Shown here piece by piece: positions 56,979 through 64,000 of a stretch of 64,000 nucleotides of DNA. How positions within the stretch are numbered: position 1 is the first letter of the stretch; the number at the start of each line of letters is the position of its first letter. The notes beneath the pieces are model-generated. The model did no database searches. It saw only the letters and a program-made list of their open reading frames with translations, and had not been told where the DNA came from. The position numbers and the translations under genes are program-made. This stretch comes from Mycolicibacterium boenickei (GTDB taxonomy: Bacteria; Actinomycetota; Actinomycetes; Mycobacteriales; Mycobacteriaceae), in NCBI RefSeq assembly GCF_010731295.1, contig NZ_AP022579.1, positions 2,046,001 to 2,110,000 of the forward strand. Direction: 5' to 3'.

Positions 56979-57998
56979 ATGTCTTCGGCCGCAGTTGTTT
57001 TGGACTCCGAGTTGGGTCCGAAGCAGCGGTTGGAGGTGTTGTTCGACGAGTTGTCGCAGCTGTGTGGTCAGCGCAATGCGATCGATGGTCGGATCGTGGA
57101 GATCGTGGCTAAGATCGACCGTGACGAACTGTGCGGGATGACCGGAGCCCGCTCGGTATCGGCCATGGTGGCCTGGAAGACCGGTGTCTCACCGCGCAAC
57201 GCCGAGGTTGTGGTGGCGGTGGCGCGGCGGCTCGACGAGTTCCCCCGGTGCGCCGAAGGTATGCGGGACGGCCGGCTGTCGCTGGATCAGGTCGGGGTGA
57301 TCGCGGAGAAGGCAGCAGATGGTTCCGATGAGCATTACGCCGAGTTGGCTTCGGCGGCTACCGTTGGTCAGTTGCGTACCGCGATCAAGCTCGAGCCCCG
57401 CCCTCAACCTGATCCGAAACCCGAACCGCAGCGGGAGATCACCAAGATCCCCGGCCCTGACGACGAATACACCACCTGGCGGATCCGGCTACCGAGGCTG
57501 GAAGCGGCGACATTCGAGGCCGCCCTGCGGTCGCATCACGATGCGCTGGTGGCCGATTGGAAACGTGACCACGAGGCGGGCGATGAGCAGGCGCCGCCGT
57601 TCCCGGGCACAGTCGATGCGTTCATGAGCTTGGTCGAGGCGGGTTGGGATGCCGACGTGGCCGCCCGCCCGCACGGGCAACACACCACCGTCGCGGTCCA
57701 TCTGAACCTCACCGACCGCATCGCCGCCCTGCATCTTGGCCCGGTGCTGACCGATGAGGAGCGCCAATACCTGTTGTGCGATGCCATCTGTGAGGTGTGG
57801 CTCGAACGCCACGGCCAACCGATCAGCGTTGGGCGCGGCACCCGCACCATCAGCCGACGACTGCGCCGTGCCTTGGAGCACCGTGACCGGTGCTGTGTGG
57901 TGCCCGGCTGCGGAGCCACCCGCGGCCTGCATGCACATCACATCGTGCACTGGGAGGACGGCGGCCCCACCGACCTCGATAAGCTGAAATATCGCTAA
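56979..57998 (+). pseudogene. 13E12-family DUF222/HNH protein truncated by element insertion
   Basis: The frame encodes 339 residues of a 13E12-repeat-family protein: an N-terminal DUF222 region (LFDELSQLCGQRNAIDGRIVEIVAKIDRD, then ARSVSAMVAWKTGVSPRNAEVV) and the start of a C-terminal HNH nuclease (RDRCCVVPGCGATRGLHAHHIVHWEDGGPTDLDKL). Intact members continue with a CPYHHRLHH-like segment after GGPT-L-N-L; here the frame turns into KYR and stops. The missing HNH half and the serine integrase ten bases on show that an element inserted here. The other half should lie at the far junction. Confidence 0.88.
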
Positions 57999-58007
57999 AC
58001 TACCCTC
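57970..58007. other. Probable left attachment junction (attL or attR)
   Basis: Similarity to 13E12 genes ends around 57975-57990, within the codons after GGPTDLDKL, and the integrase ATG is at 58008. The crossover core must be in this interval. The same kind of gene is the attB of M. tuberculosis phiRv1, which also uses a serine integrase. The exact core cannot be fixed without the other junction. Confidence 0.68.
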
Positions 58008-59447
58008 ATGGGGAAAGCGAAAACTCCAGCTCAGCGTGTCGGGGCGCGGTCCGCGGCGATCTACGCCCGCATCTCAGCCGATGTGGAGGGCACCGGCCTG
58101 GGGGTCGCCCGTCAACTCGAAGACTGCCGCAAGCTCGCCGCGGAGCGAGGCTGGCCGATCGGTGACGAGTACGTCGACAATGATGTCTCAGCGTATTCGG
58201 GAAAGCCGCGCCGCGAGTACGCCCGCATGCTGGATGACCTGAAATCCGGTGCGCGGGATGCGGTGATCGTCTACAACCTCGACCGGCTACATCGCCGTCC
58301 GGTCGAGTTGGAAGACTTCGTGACGCTGTGTGAGTCGGTCGGGGTGCGTGATGTCGCTACCGTGACCGCCGACATCGATTTGGGTAACGATGACGGGTTG
58401 TTCATGGCCCGGATTTTCGCCGCGTTCGCCGCCAAAGAATCTGGCCGCAAATCCGCGCGTATCCGCCGCAAGATGTTGCAGAACGCCGAAAAAGGCCTGC
58501 CGCACGGCCCGGCGCGCCCTTTCGGATACGAGCCCGACAAAATTACCCTGCGCCCTGAGGAAGCCAAGATCGTGCGGGAGATGGTCGACCGGTATCTCGC
58601 GGGTGCGTCGATCCGGTCGTTGACCATCTGGCTCAGCGACACCGGTGTGGCCCCGCCCGCGTCGAAGTCGTGGCAGACCACCACGGTGCGCAACATTTTG
58701 GCCTCCGGACGGATCGCCGGGCTCCGGGAGCATCATGGTGAGGTGATCGGCGCCGCGGCGTGGCCGGCGATCATCACCGCGGGCGAGCGCGACCGCATCC
58801 TTGCCCGGATGACTGCTCGCAGCGTCACGAAAACTCGCGCCCCGCGCACCTACCTGCTGTCGGGGATGTTGCGGTGCGGGCGGTGTGGGAATCGGTTGTT
58901 TTCCCAAGCCCGCCATAACAATCCGACTAACCGGGTGCGGCGCTACGTGTGTTTGAAAGGTCCCGATCACGGTGGCTGCGGGCGACTGACCGTGGTGGCG
59001 CTGCCGGTCGAGGAATTGCTCACCGATGCGGTGCTGACCCGACTGGACTCACCCCAGCTGGCAGGAGCATTAGCAGGTAGGTCCAGTGTGGACGCCGACG
59101 TCGCCGCGTTGGCCGCCCAGTTGGAGGCCGACCAGGCCCGCTTGGATGAATTGGCCGGGCTGTATGCAGAGGGGGCGGTGTCGGCGCGGGAATGGATCGC
59201 TGCCCGCGACCCCATCACCGACCGCATCGCCCGCGCCCGCCGCGACATCGCCAAGGCCACCGACACCAGTGCGGTGATGGATCTGGTGGGCTGCGGCGAG
59301 GTGCTGCGCGGTCAGTGGGATGACCTTGACATCGACCGCCAACAAGCCATCATCAAATCAGTGCTCGATCACGCCGTCATCGCACCCGGCACGCCCGGGT
59401 CGCGCAAGTTGGATATCAACCGGGTACAGCCGCATTGGCGGATTTAG
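58008..59447 (+). CDS. Large serine recombinase (integrase)
   Basis: A 479-residue large serine integrase; phiRv1 integrase is of similar size (about 469). The resolvase domain begins AAIYARISADVEGTGLGVARQLEDC with the catalytic Ser23 after Arg21, and continues through VIVYNLDRLHRRP and FAAKESGRKSARIRRKM. A recombinase domain (PFGYEPD ... TVRNILASGRIAG) and a zinc-ribbon domain with CGRCGNRLF and a later Cys pair (CLKGPDHGGCG) follow, then a coiled-coil region. It is adjacent to the broken 13E12 gene, as expected for an integrase beside its att site. Confidence 0.95.
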   Translation: MGKAKTPAQRVGARSAAIYARISADVEGTGLGVARQLEDCRKLAAERGWPIGDEYVDNDVSAYSGKPRREYARMLDDLKSGARDAVIVYNLDRLHRRPVELEDFVTLCESVGVRDVATVTADIDLGNDDGLFMARIFAAFAAKESGRKSARIRRKMLQNAEKGLPHGPARPFGYEPDKITLRPEEAKIVREMVDRYLAGASIRSLTIWLSDTGVAPPASKSWQTTTVRNILASGRIAGLREHHGEVIGAAAWPAIITAGERDRILARMTARSVTKTRAPRTYLLSGMLRCGRCGNRLFSQARHNNPTNRVRRYVCLKGPDHGGCGRLTVVALPVEELLTDAVLTRLDSPQLAGALAGRSSVDADVAALAAQLEADQARLDELAGLYAEGAVSAREWIAARDPITDRIARARRDIAKATDTSAVMDLVGCGEVLRGQWDDLDIDRQQAIIKSVLDHAVIAPGTPGSRKLDINRVQPHWRI

Positions 59448-59481
59448 AACGTCTCGTCCGTTGGGTAAACGTCTCGTCCGT
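59448..59481. repeat. Tandem 14-base direct repeat after the integrase
   Basis: AACGTCTCGTCCGT occurs at 59448-59461 and 59468-59481, a 20-base period (about two helical turns), starting on the last base before or at the integrase stop region. It lies in the 243-base gap before ietA, which otherwise holds only a possible -10 (TAGACT, 59625-59630). It may bind a regulator or a directionality factor. Confidence 0.65.
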
Positions 59482-59690
59482 CGGTACATGCCGAAACTTT
59501 GCCTTTAGAACACGTACGACTTTGCGTGTGGCGCCCGGCATTCGCTGCATTCGGGCATTCCTCGTCGGGCCAGGTTGGTGTACTTGCGTCAGGCGTGGTG
59601 TCGGGAAGCAGTCATCACGCCCGTTAGACTCAGCTCACGGGGCCTGCCGTGCTGGTCAGGACGGTTGTTTGACCCGAAGGGAGGTCAGCG

Positions 59691-60689
59691 GTGGCGACAA
59701 ATGACCAGTTGAAGGCTCTCGTCATGAGCCACGCCGAGGGCGACGACCCCCAGTTCTACGCCGTGGCGATGCAGGTGGCTGCAAAAGCTGCACGAGCTGG
59801 GCACGCAAAGTTCGCCCAAGAACTGCGCGACCTGGTTGACGAGTTGCGTAAGCGTGGTGCAGTGAAGTCGCGGGTGGCCTCGGTGGTGCCGGTGGCGCAG
59901 CCCCGGGGTGAACTGGGCTCTCTGCTCGCTGTCAGCTATCCGGAGTCTCGACTGGCAGACCTCGTGTTATCCCCGGGTCTTGCCGAGCACCTGCGGCATG
60001 TATTGCTTGAGCAGCGTCAACGAGACATGCTTGCCCGCCACGGTCTTCGGGCCGCGGGCCGGTTGCTGCTCACCGGCCCGCCAGGGACCGGCAAGACTTC
60101 AACCGCGCGAGTTATTGCCGGCGAGTTGGGGCTTCCACTGTTTTCGGTGCGGCTGGACACAATCATCACCAAATACATGGGTGAGACGGCAGCGAAACTG
60201 CGCTTGATTTTCGATGCGCTCATCGACACGCGGGGGGTCTACTTGTTCGACGAGGTCGATGCGCTTGCCGGAGATCGGGCCGCACCCAACGACGTCGGCG
60301 AGATCCGCCGAGTCCTCAACTCCTTTCTTCAATTCCTCGAAGAGGATTCCTCGGACAGCATCATCATCGCGGCCACCAATCACCCCAAGTTGCTCGACAA
60401 CGCCCTCTATCGCCGATTTGACACAGTGATGGACTTCGCACTGCCCGACGACGCGGCCACCGAGGCCGTCATCCGCAACCGACTCGCTCGGTTCCAAATC
60501 GGCAACCTGAGTTGGCCGAGGGTCGTCGCTGCCGCGCGCGGGCTCAGTCACGGAGAGATCGCGACTGCAGCAGAGAATGCGGCGAAGCGAACAGTTCTGG
60601 CTGGCCGGGCCCGGGTGCGCACCGACGACCTGGTGGCCGCCCTGCACGAACGGCCGCGTGCCAATCACCACGGCGAGTCGGCGATCTAG
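59691..60689 (+). CDS. ietA: AAA ATPase, IetA-like
   Basis: A 332-residue AAA ATPase. An N-terminal helical region of about 80 residues precedes Walker A GPPGTGKT (129-136), Walker B YLFDEVD (184-190), sensor-1 Asn230 and a probable arginine finger at Arg241-Arg242. In the IetAS pair of the Agrobacterium Ti plasmid the ATPase is the antitoxin to a subtilisin-like protease; the same pair was later listed among predicted anti-phage systems. GTG start with GAAGGGAGG six bases upstream. The protease gene follows after five bases. Confidence 0.87.
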   Translation: MATNDQLKALVMSHAEGDDPQFYAVAMQVAAKAARAGHAKFAQELRDLVDELRKRGAVKSRVASVVPVAQPRGELGSLLAVSYPESRLADLVLSPGLAEHLRHVLLEQRQRDMLARHGLRAAGRLLLTGPPGTGKTSTARVIAGELGLPLFSVRLDTIITKYMGETAAKLRLIFDALIDTRGVYLFDEVDALAGDRAAPNDVGEIRRVLNSFLQFLEEDSSDSIIIAATNHPKLLDNALYRRFDTVMDFALPDDAATEAVIRNRLARFQIGNLSWPRVVAAARGLSHGEIATAAENAAKRTVLAGRARVRTDDLVAALHERPRANHHGESAI

Positions 60690-60694
60690 ACGTC

Positions 60695-63253
60695 ATGGCA
60701 GAGCGAGATCGTCCTCACCTTGTCGTGTCGGTAGCGCCAGTATCGGAGTCCTTTACGCTCGCCAGCGCTGGTGGCGGTGGCGACAAGCACGAGTTCACCG
60801 GCGATCGCAAGGGGCATGGCCGACGCCTCACTGACGAATTCAACGCCGCAGTCGCGCCTACAGCCGACGATGAGATCGAGCCTGCAGGAACCTACGTCAC
60901 GTTTGTGTCGTTTCCAGATTTGGAACTGGCGTTGCAAAGTCTGGACCCGCAGCGCTCTGGTGAGCAGCCCGAGTTGGTCGCCGTCCGGGAGACGCAGACC
61001 ACCGACGGGATCGTTCAGATGGCGACCGTGTACATCCCGCGGGGCAAGAAAGAGTACTTCCTCAAACGGTTGGACGCCTACGTGTCGTCTGCAGACCGGA
61101 CCAAGGCTGACAATGCCGCACTAATTGAGAGTATCCAGTCGATCCGTCGAGCGACGATCCGCGAACTATGGACCGATCCCGATGAATTGTTTCCCGACGA
61201 CCCCACCGAAGTCCGTTGGTGGGAGGTGTGGCTGCTTAACCGTGACCGCCGCGAACAAGCAAGATTCAGCGACTTTGTTGTCCAACACGAACTGCGCACC
61301 AGTGAGCACTATCTGGGTTTCGGTGACCGCACCGTAGTGTTGCTATACGCTTCGGCAGACCAACTGGCGCAGACGTTTCAATCAGTTGACGACATCGCCG
61401 AGTTGCGCCGACCGCACGACGTTGCCACTTTGTTGACAGAACTGCCCGCCGCCGAGCAGACCGAGTGGGTGGACGATCTGCGCGCGCGTCTACGGATGGC
61501 CGACAAGGATGCTGCGGTGGTGTGCATCCTCGACACTGGCGTGCAGGACACGCACCCTCTGCTCACCGACTCGATTGGAGCCGCGGACCTGCACGTCGCA
61601 GACCCGCGCTGGCAGACCACGCCCGTCCAATCGCACGGAACTGAGATGGCAGGCCTGGCCCTCTACGGAGACCTGCACGCCGCACTCGTCGACACCCAGC
61701 CGGTCCAATTGACTCACCGCCTGGAGTCGGTGAAGTTCTTGCCCGATAACGCCCACAACGATCGTGATCTCTACGGTGCTATCACTGCTCGCGCGGTCGA
61801 CCGCCCAGAGATCCAAGCCGCCGCCCGGCGCCGCGTGTTCATGCTCGCGGTCACTGCGCGCCGCCCCTCCGTCGACGGAACTGACACCGAACCGACCACA
61901 CGAATCGACACCGGCAGACCCACGTCGTGGTCGGCGGCGATCGACGCTCTGGCCTTCGGCCGGGCCATCGATGACAGCGATCCCAAGCTCACCTACCTCG
62001 ACCGTGACGAGCCGCGGCGCCCGCGCCTGTTCCTCGTCTCGGCCGGCAACATCCGCGACCTTCGTGGCACCGATGATCACCTCGCTCGAAGTGATGTCGA
62101 GCCGGTCGAAGACCCCGCCCAGTCGTGGAACGCGCTCACGGTTGGCGCTTACTCCAATCGTGACGACATGTCCGGCGCACCAGCTGATTTCGCCGGCTAC
62201 GTGCCGGTAGCCAAGAGGGGTGAACTATCCCCGGTCAGCCGCACGTCGGTAGTCTTTGACCGCACGAAATGGCCGTTCAAACCCGATGTGGTCGCTGATG
62301 GCGGCAACGTCGCAGTATCACCGGACCGCACAGACGTTGATACGCCGCCCAATCTCGCTCTGCTCACAACCCGCCTCCAACGCCCGGGACACGGTTTCTT
62401 CACCGCGACGCGAGACACCTCGGCCGCCACCGCTCAGGTCGCAGCCATCGCCGGCAATCTCTCCCAGGCCTACCCGCAGCTGCGCCCCGAGACCATCCGC
62501 GGGTTGATCGTGCACTCGGCTCAGTGGACCGACGCCATGCGCAACCGCTTCAACACCGAATCGAACAAGACTCGCCTCGCCAGCCTGCTGCGCCGCTACG
62601 GGATGGGTGTACCCGACGCGGCCCGCGCACTGCGTAGCGCCACCGATGCGCTCACCCTCATCGCAGAGGCCCGAATCCATCCCTACGAGCGCGACCGCGA
62701 CAGCAACTCAGGCAAAGTGCGGGAGATGAATCTCCACCAACTGCCATGGCCGACCGAAATACTCGAAGGGCTAGGCGAAACCGAAGTACGCATGCGCGTG
62801 ACCCTGTCCTACTTCGTTGAACCCAACCCTTCCAGCCGCGGCTGGACGGGCCGCTATATCTATCCCTCCCATGGCCTACGGTTCGCCACCCGACGCCCGG
62901 AGGACAACATCGAATCGTTCCGCCAGCGCATCAACACCCGCGCACGTATCGACGGGCAACGCCCACCTGCACTCGACACCGAGAAAGGCTGGTTCTTCGG
63001 CAGCAACCTGCAGCAGGCCCCCGGCTCACTACACACCGACATCTGGACAGGTCCAGCCGCCAACCTCGCCAGCAAGGGAGCCATCGCCGTGTACCCGGTC
63101 GCGGGATGGTGGAAAAACCAACGCAAATACGACCAAAGCAACCACGGCGTTGACTACTCACTCATCGTCAGCATCGAATCCCCACACGTCGACGTTGACC
63201 TATGGGCTCCCGTCGCCCAACAGATCAGCACAACCGTCGAAATCCAAACCTAG
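60695..63253 (+). CDS. ietS: Subtilisin-like (S8) serine protease, IetS-like
   Basis: An 852-residue cytosolic S8 protease with no signal peptide. An N-terminal region of about 265 residues of unknown fold precedes the peptidase domain. The catalytic residues are Asp280 (VCILDTGVQDTHPLL), His314 (SHGTEMAG), oxyanion Asn452 (VSAGN) and Ser576 (TRDTSAATAQVAAIAG). A C-terminal beta-rich region of about 200 residues follows. All residues are in place, so it should be active. In IetAS it is the toxic or effector component held in check by the ATPase. The five-base gap to ietA indicates one operon. Confidence 0.9.
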   Translation: MAERDRPHLVVSVAPVSESFTLASAGGGGDKHEFTGDRKGHGRRLTDEFNAAVAPTADDEIEPAGTYVTFVSFPDLELALQSLDPQRSGEQPELVAVRETQTTDGIVQMATVYIPRGKKEYFLKRLDAYVSSADRTKADNAALIESIQSIRRATIRELWTDPDELFPDDPTEVRWWEVWLLNRDRREQARFSDFVVQHELRTSEHYLGFGDRTVVLLYASADQLAQTFQSVDDIAELRRPHDVATLLTELPAAEQTEWVDDLRARLRMADKDAAVVCILDTGVQDTHPLLTDSIGAADLHVADPRWQTTPVQSHGTEMAGLALYGDLHAALVDTQPVQLTHRLESVKFLPDNAHNDRDLYGAITARAVDRPEIQAAARRRVFMLAVTARRPSVDGTDTEPTTRIDTGRPTSWSAAIDALAFGRAIDDSDPKLTYLDRDEPRRPRLFLVSAGNIRDLRGTDDHLARSDVEPVEDPAQSWNALTVGAYSNRDDMSGAPADFAGYVPVAKRGELSPVSRTSVVFDRTKWPFKPDVVADGGNVAVSPDRTDVDTPPNLALLTTRLQRPGHGFFTATRDTSAATAQVAAIAGNLSQAYPQLRPETIRGLIVHSAQWTDAMRNRFNTESNKTRLASLLRRYGMGVPDAARALRSATDALTLIAEARIHPYERDRDSNSGKVREMNLHQLPWPTEILEGLGETEVRMRVTLSYFVEPNPSSRGWTGRYIYPSHGLRFATRRPEDNIESFRQRINTRARIDGQRPPALDTEKGWFFGSNLQQAPGSLHTDIWTGPAANLASKGAIAVYPVAGWWKNQRKYDQSNHGVDYSLIVSIESPHVDVDLWAPVAQQISTTVEIQT

Positions 63254-63645
63254 CCAAGCTTTTATGCCGCTGTATTCCGCGCATTACCAAATCTAGCAAT
63301 GTTCACTTGCGAACCCTGATAGGAACGGTCGACGATCCCTTTGGGTATCGACGAAGGGCTCAACGGACTGACCGAGCAATCTCCTGGTGCAGGAGTATTC
63401 GCGGGATCCGCATCCTACTTCCAGAGAACGCCGTCTGCGTGCACGGTTGTGCAATTTTCACTGGTCACCTTCGACTATTCGTTGACTGGCAGTTGATGTC
63501 AAGGCTCGAACCGGGGGTTCGCCCGCCTGCGGCGCCGGCCCTGACATCAATTGCCAGCCAACAGCATTGGACCGCTGTGACCAGGCGAGGAAACAGCGTC
63601 AGAATGTGACGGCCTGGTCGCACTGAGCTGACGCTGTGCCGCGCC
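63254..63645. other. Non-coding region after ietS
   Basis: 392 bases with no supportable gene; the open plus-strand frame across it has no ribosome site or recognisable domain. The base composition looks less GC-rich than the surrounding genes. It ends at the stop of the small minus-strand gene. The main content is the nested inverted repeat listed separately. Confidence 0.6.
63461..63584. repeat. Long nested inverted repeat (possible structured RNA or cruciform)
   Basis: Three nested stems. Outer: CTGGTCAC (63461-63468) with GTGACCAG (63577-63584). Middle: 24-base arms 63481-63504 and 63539-63562, complementary except three positions that are all G-U compatible. Inner: CGAACC-GGG-GGTTCG within 63505-63538, plus a small CCGC-CT-GCGG stem. 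Preservation as G-U pairs hints at selection on an RNA. A terminator for convergent transcripts, a DNA replication or packaging site, or a transposon end are alternatives. Confidence 0.72.
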
Positions 63646-63807
63646 TTACCGCAGCAGGGTGGCGATGTCAGCGAGGACAGCCGGGTTGGTGATGGTGACC
63701 GCGACGTGCTGGCGTTCACAGGATTCGACAAGCCAGGCGGTGAATTCTTGACGACTGTAAGACTTTCCAGTCTGCCTATCCGCGGATCGCACCTCCCGGC
63801 TAGCCAT
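63646..63807 (-). CDS. Small unrecognised protein of the element (53 residues)
   Basis: A 53-residue basic-start protein, MASREVRSADRQTGKSYSRQ onward, ending with a hydrophobic helix pair (VTITNPAVLADIATLL). The ATG at 63807 overlaps the stop of the upstream partial gene by eight bases, and GAGGT stands five bases before it, so it is translationally coupled. The longer frame reaching 63972 is antisense coding of the neighbour and is not needed. No family is recognised; a small DNA-binding or regulatory protein is possible. Confidence 0.6.
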   Translation of the reverse strand: MASREVRSADRQTGKSYSRQEFTAWLVESCERQHVAVTITNPAVLADIATLLR

Positions 63808-64000
63808 CGGGTACCTCGACAGGAAGATCACCACGCTGGTGCAATAGTGCTTCGCGGGCAGTGCGGCGCCGGTCGATCCGACGTAGCGCCGCGCTGACGA
63901 TGAGGGTGCGCTCACCGAGGCTGGCGTGACCGGCGCGGTCGAACTCCCACGCCACCAGATCATTGCCATCATCGCCGTGTCGACGATCCGGATTATGCTT
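63800..64000 (-). CDS. 3' end of an unrecognised gene running off the right edge
   Basis: On the minus strand the frame is open from base 64000 to a TAG at 63800-63802 and encodes 66 residues, including NDLVAWEFDRAGHASLGERT and RRIDRRRTAREALL. The composition (acidic/basic helices, no stops) and the overlap with the next ATG argue for a real gene whose start lies outside. No family is recognised from this fragment. Confidence 0.6.
   Translation of the reverse strand, partial: KHNPDRRHGDDGNDLVAWEFDRAGHASLGERTLIVSAALRRIDRRRTAREALLHQRGDLPVEVPDG

Follow-up and report, generated by a model that had tools for sequence, protein, structure and literature searches.

The 64,000-nucleotide stretch of Mycolicibacterium boenickei DNA analysed here (the window; C1:2046001-2110000 of a 6.6 Mb genome, contig NZ_AP022579.1) ends inside a mobile element of 22,039 bp, which occupies C1:2103981-2126019 when the AA at both ends is counted. 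Very probably it is a 22-kb actinomycete integrative and conjugative element (AICE) with the replication protein RepSA and an FtsK/TraB transfer protein, a slot for defence genes between the integrase (int) and replication (rep) genes and, in that slot, an IetAS ATPase-protease pair that probably works as a guarded protease. In window numbering, continued past the last position where needed, the element runs from 57981 to 80019, and the window covers its first 6 kb only. The original prediction had placed a phiRv1-like element at 57985..64000; an element is indeed present, with the wider limits given above.

The AICE assignment follows the formula used by Ghinet et al., namely integrase, RepSA and FtsK (PMC3218068). 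The integrase is a large serine recombinase of 479 amino acids at 58008..59447 on the plus strand (Pfam Resolvase 2e-27, Recombinase 4e-13, Zn_ribbon_recom 1e-9), whose best match in phage records is 37.5%. On the minus strand, the C-terminal end of RepSA lies at 63800..64000 and the whole gene reaches 65518. RepSA (Pfam E 4.6e-126) is one of the replication proteins that define AICEs, alongside RepAM and Prim-Pol, and here it retains its HUH and Tyr motifs. Beyond it is encoded a single FtsK/SpoIIIE-type protein, as expected of an AICE, with a Walker A motif (Pfam FtsK E 8.4e-17). Judged by these genes and by its flanking sites, which derive from one attP and one attB as in AICEs, the element is an AICE with the integrase type and the target of phiRv1.

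Copies, ends and target of the element

We surveyed 396 genomes of the genus, one per species, and found the integrase at E<=1e-90 in 37. Of 48 integrase match rows, 47 were laid out as loci, the decayed copy in G045 being omitted. The whole element recurs in G117 (3 mismatches), G141 (1) and G344 (3) over 22,039 bp, each time in a different 13E12 gene. The 5' halves of these genes are 68, 81 and 70% identical, respectively, to that in M. boenickei (G000), and rpoB (1.8 kb) is 90.5, 99.0 and 93.2% identical. Judged by rpoB, the host probably belongs to the M. fortuitum group. A fifth insertion is found in M. palustre DSM 44572 (L160), on a 6.25-kb contig with 13E12, int, IetAS and a partial rep; over 6.1 kb it shows a single mismatch, and its left flank does not resemble those of the other copies. 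Copies as similar as these suggest recent movement of the element. A related element carrying SIR2/PDC-S25 is identical in G186 and G220 (L125+L151 and L127+L152; 26,642 bp, zero mismatches), two species whose rpoB genes are only 85.6% identical.

All five copies share a left edge of identity at 57981, within the final codons of the 13E12 frame, so the junction of 13E12 and integrase is not a matter of chance. The attL site at 57981..58007 (plus strand) comprises the central dinucleotide AA (57981-57982) and one half of attP (AAGCTGAAATATCGCTAAACTACCCTC). Together the two ends of the element make up the half-sites of a single imperfect palindromic attP centred on AA, with 17 of 25 arm positions palindromic; none of 21,610 interior positions scores as high. 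Right ends were located in ten loci and the palindrome was tested in six, the right ends of G074, G117, G141 and G344 duplicating tested ones. The five further loci gave 16-18 of 25, and among the six only G165 had an interior position that attained the score of its ends (1 of 11,795). Both att sites can thus be defined from the shared copy edges and the palindromic ends, as the original prediction had anticipated. A search for inverted repeats at the ends found none at the left and one at the right, within host sequence. Counts of promoter-like sites (3, against 1.1 in shuffled sequence, standard deviation 0.9) and terminator-like sites (4, against 3.7) were uninformative.

The interrupted gene is a host 13E12 (DUF222/HNH) gene, whose 5' part lies at 56979..57980 on the plus strand (Pfam DUF222 E 9.4e-48), with a start codon that is one among several candidates and a right limit set by the left edge of the copies. 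It is cut at its HNH codons. The frame ends at 57998, inside the HNH motif (its match to the HNH profile covers positions 4-31 of 47 and, with E 0.0053, does not reach the Pfam cut-off), and the integrase follows after 9 nt, which bears out the prediction of a broken HNH motif with a serine integrase within ten bases. The missing HNH half had been expected within tens of kilobases to the right and was found there at 22 kb, outside the window: the 3' half (NLVLVCPYHHRAHHRG...) starts at C1:2126020, equivalent to 80020. When the two halves are aligned separately, both match side by side in one gene in 16 of 30 DUF222 loci. We considered whether the 3' piece might be an unrelated remnant and rejected this, since the copy edges, the palindromic attP and the uninterrupted relatives all agree that it belongs to the cut gene.

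The same target is used widely. Among the 46 related loci with a readable left flank, 33 interrupt a DUF222/HNH gene: 20 of these genes are of the 13E12 type, as reported for phiRv1, and the other 13 are DUF222/HNH paralogues, cut at the same HNH codons. The left flank of G165 resembles 13E12 and is too short for the automatic test. The M. boenickei genome itself has 11 DUF222 match rows, two of these in one frame. Of 20 integrase loci from outside the genus, four (L185, L188, L202, L203) have a DUF222/HNH frame on the opposite strand, 2.6-3.4 kb beyond the integrase. These integrases are relatives at 55-61% from Sinomonas, Rathayibacter and Knoellia, with the DUF222 frame on the integrase's opposite side. 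In each case the frame departs from the HNH motif where the insertions in the genus cut it, and the idea that these are whole genes clipped by the query was rejected on that ground.

A variable slot between int and rep

The int-rep interval (59448..63799) behaves as a variable defence-cassette slot when the loci are compared. In an integrase tree of 47 rows (44 full-length sequences from the genus and 3 from the outgroup), the M. boenickei integrase falls in a clade of 19 loci with support of 100/97, and a known or candidate defence gene directly follows int in all 19. The int-rep gap is 4359 bp here, and in the 16 clade loci that have rep, int and the matched part of rep are 4.36-5.62 kb apart. 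Outside the clade, the gap is only 0.26-0.97 kb in 26 of the 27 loci with rep; the exception, G393, has a gap of 7.1 kb with an RmrA-like gene.

Several different systems occupy the slot. IetAS of a first type is found in G000, G117, G141, G344 and G207, and a second type, unlike the first, in G047 and G287. SIR2/PDC-S25 with XRE-M78 and a PIN-like gene is found in G074, G186, G243, G220, G319 and G277, and in G206 with SIR2 truncated. AbiD is found in G034, G037 and G307, SIR2-pAgo in a second element of G037, and a fragment of LmuA (profile positions 4-168 of 373) in G002. Six of the 19 slots were scanned directly by PADLOC on selected open reading frames, and the other 13 were called by tblastn identity of 88-100% to a scanned copy. 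In a PADLOC control with 10 host open reading frames (of 34 long ones), a single match passed the 1e-3 threshold (E 3e-15), and no match passed 1e-20. Each of the two IetAS types requires two changes on starred branches of the integrase tree.

One exchange can be followed within an otherwise similar element. Compared with the M. boenickei element, that of G287 starts with 500 bp at 99% identity, and identity is 81-82% in the remainder of int; its IetAS is unalike and its rep is 72-83% identical, and from 7.5 kb onwards to the right end the two are mostly 97-100% identical, with three 500-bp steps at 91-94%. By this alignment, the cassette was exchanged through the flanking backbone, along with much of int and rep.

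Some observations weigh against the reading of the element set out above. Fourteen of the 19 slots belong to three sets with identical integrases (4 IetAS, 7 SIR2, 3 AbiD), so the clade represents 8 distinct integrases and not 19 independent events, and two of the 19 slots contain truncated systems. The left flanks of the remaining 13 of the 46 related loci match neither 13E12 nor a DUF222/HNH paralogue. NCBIfam equivalog cut-offs are missed by RepSA (247 of 700 bits) and TraB (46.3 of 800), as well as by the two proteins of the pair when compared with the IteA/IteS anti-phage models (IetA 216 of 510 bits, IetS 61.9 of 900), and the functions of all four may therefore differ from those of the named models.

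The IetAS pair and its possible roles

The ATPase and protease motifs of the cargo pair are intact. IetA is an AAA ATPase of 332 amino acids at 59691..60689 (plus strand; PADLOC IetA E 2.4e-74) with Walker A at residue 129. IetS, an S8 (subtilase) protease of 852 amino acids, lies at 60695..63253 on the same strand, 5 nt downstream; its scores (Pfam Peptidase_S8 7.9e-51, PADLOC IetS E 8e-36) were computed on a longer frame that starts at 60512. The adjacent ATPase and protease of the original prediction are thus confirmed, and the profile check that it proposed gave matches to both IetA and IetS. Besides the ATPase motif, the protease residues D280, H314, N452 and S576 of IetS are in place and invariant across 43 aligned sequences, the second IetAS type included. 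A sequence search of the PDB returned nothing close to IetS (best E 0.012), and its predicted structure, with a mean predicted local distance difference test score (pLDDT) of 59.3, was not used.

We rejected the idea that IetAS is confined to this AICE: IetA is matched at E<=1e-30 in at least 51 of the 396 genomes of the genus, a lower bound with five candidates scored per genome, and 7 of these 51 carry IetA in the int-rep slot. At E<=1e-60, IetS matches 5 of 394 genomes of the class, that of M. boenickei included. The protein cluster of the M. boenickei IetS (P0001) comprises 33 member sequences on 325 contigs, and the pair is therefore far commoner than a survey of one genome per species shows. 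Among 16 IetAS loci examined outside the slot (14 from the genus, 2 from the class), L224 (G063 C6:246001-256126) is a decayed element that has retained its pair: its IetAS genes, 95% identical to those of M. boenickei, stand 3' of an integrase remnant (residues 440-479), with rep absent in the stretch examined. The other 15 have neither the same integrase nor the same rep within up to ~10 kb on each side; one of these, L229, has a 34% tra match at the edge of its stretch. In L230 (G090 C1:692001-712000), outside the AICE, relatives of MmpL, DUF6188 and TetR adjoin a different IetAS-like pair (IetA 44%, IetS 29%).

IetAS is catalogued among the defence systems whose mechanism is unknown (PMC9958689). 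Here it is most likely a defence and/or addiction module. In the mechanism that we propose, IetA would restrain the protease IetS until a phage infects the cell or the element is lost; IetS, once free, would then stop or kill the cell. The first anti-phage report for IetAS is said to be that of Gao et al. in 2020. Defence by means of a guarded protease would be the most likely function, and addiction a second or shared one; the replacement of one defence system by another in a single slot favours a defence role, and the known toxin-antitoxin behaviour of IetAS homologues favours maintenance.

That IetAS is purely an addiction module, keeping the AICE in the population with anti-phage activity absent or incidental, is rather unlikely in our estimation. 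The homologue SgiAT, a working toxin (S8 protease)-antitoxin (AAA ATPase) pair, keeps SGI1 stable when excision of the island is possible (PMC5006074), which argues for such a role, as do the missed cut-offs for the anti-phage pair and the distribution of IetS relatives, which occur in 486 of 72,556 plasmid records, 340 of the 486 being conjugative, versus 2 of 50,697 phage records. Pulling the other way, the same slot carries SIR2-pAgo, PDC-S25, AbiD and the LmuA fragment, all classed as defence. PHROG families also exist for IetA-like and IetS-like phage proteins, so the pair is not limited to conjugative elements. Klebsiella accounts for 213 of the plasmid records with an IetS relative, at <60% identity.

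A further alternative, to which we give still less weight, is that the slot cargo mainly excludes rival AICEs, plasmids and prophages that use the same DUF222/HNH sites, more than lytic phage. The target is a multi-copy family, as the DUF222 matches in the host genome illustrate, and several genomes bear two to four related integrases (four in G045; three in G022 and G195; two in G037, G074, G243 and G277). Both facts would suit competition for sites, but co-resident elements also mean that exclusion is incomplete.

Returning to the reading of the element as an AICE with a guarded protease as cargo, its life cycle would run as follows. The serine integrase inserts the element into DUF222/13E12 genes, a multi-copy family, at the AA within their HNH codons, and with a directionality factor it would also excise it. 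RepSA would replicate it by rolling circle, and the FtsK/TraB protein would transfer it as double-stranded DNA. Modules in the slot would be exchanged by homologous recombination in the conserved backbone, with int on the left and the rep-tra region on the right.

Backbone genes, related elements and significance

RepSA is found in 43 and FtsK/TraB in 41 of the 47 related loci. After RepSA, the genes up to 80019 encode, in order, FtsK/TraB, a 114-amino-acid protein, XRE, NUDIX, HD, TetR, MmpL, DUF6188, TetR, a thioesterase-like protein, TetR, an acyl-CoA dehydrogenase, an NMT1-like protein and a luciferase-like monooxygenase, and the 13E12 3' half follows; the thioesterase-like and third TetR labels were read from sequence, outside the profile scans. 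The 114-amino-acid protein beside tra (L007:12834-13178, minus strand) has no Pfam or PHROG match and is present at 54-100% in 40 of the 47 loci; it is a candidate directionality factor or transfer protein. The right arm (L007:15587-L008:5833, equivalent to 69587-79833) holds the TetR, MmpL, DUF6188, acyl-CoA dehydrogenase, NMT1-like and luciferase-like genes, which look like cargo for transport and sulfur or xenobiotic metabolism.

Ten of the 18 element proteins were scanned against PHROGs, and no phage structural family was matched, bar a short nudix-domain match within one portal model; the matches to phage families were those of the integrase, FtsK, NUDIX, IetA and IetS. Six of the other eight proteins are named by Pfam (TetR, MmpL, TetR, acyl-CoA dehydrogenase, NMT1 and luciferase-like). 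The phiRv1-like identity of the original prediction is accordingly replaced by that of an AICE. It is very improbable that the element is a defective phiRv1-type prophage stripped of its structural genes. The serine integrase and the 13E12 target, as reported for phiRv1 (PMC9317374), speak for this reading; against it stand RepSA and FtsK/TraB, which are AICE modules, the intact spread of the element, and the finding of no structural gene among the ten proteins scanned.

Mycobacterial AICEs with serine integrases, and integrative and conjugative elements (ICEs) with defence cargo, are known kinds. In Ghinet et al. (2011), serine recombinases are described in all Mycobacterium AICEs but one, with some inserted in protein genes (PMC3218068). 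Like pSAM2-type and those mycobacterial AICEs, the present element has an integrase, RepSA and a single FtsK/SpoIIIE Tra protein (PMC3218068). It differs in its target, the HNH codons of DUF222/13E12 genes, whereas 13E12, HNH and DUF222 do not appear in the main text of that paper (PMC3218068), and it adds the defence-cassette slot; the Mmar2129/Mav3790 group of that paper may be the same family. With phiRv1 of M. tuberculosis it shares the serine integrase type and the REP13E12 target; however, phiRv1 is prophage-like and the present element has genes for conjugation and rolling-circle replication. As in IetAS of pTiC58 and SgiAT of SGI1, an AAA ATPase and an S8 protease are adjacent on a mobile element, but the pair described here is actinobacterial, falls below the NCBIfam equivalog cut-offs and sits in an exchangeable defence slot. 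Anti-phage cargo is borne by SXT/R391 ICEs, and ICEBs1 is described as a conjugative element with such cargo; the defence hotspots of these ICEs belong to another class of element in another group of hosts, with a different type of integrase and a different position of the slot. Restriction-modification or AIPR genes have been reported among the cargo of AICEs (PMC9513070), and AICE-borne genes in loci that also contain defence systems (PMC11706625). A study of the Mycolicibacterium mobilome describes one AICE-like contig (PMC8190616), and the main text of a survey of actinobacterial defence does not name IetAS (PMC10482375). Our literature search, with most subscription papers beyond its reach, found no defence slot in AICEs within 13E12/DUF222 genes.

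More tentatively, and with somewhat less than even confidence, we suggest that a genus-wide family of mycobacterial AICEs may act as a courier of interchangeable immune cassettes. Such elements would home to the catalytic HNH codons of a multi-copy nuclease-like family, which offers several landing sites per genome. Their int-rep slot would serve to swap whole systems (IetAS, SIR2-pAgo, AbiD, SIR2/PDC-S25) and to spread them between species more quickly than the host lineages part; in addition, the insertion may silence a resident HNH gene that would act against incoming DNA. Conjugative elements have been described as rare in mycobacteria (PMC7478629). The element described here provides a concrete route by which phage-defence genes may enter mycobacteria, which bears on phage therapy. 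Its serine integrase comes with a defined attP and with an attB in multiple copies, and its fixed slot is a place to look for new defence systems. Elements with nearly the same right arm and two different IetAS pairs offer a natural experiment that may separate defence from addiction.

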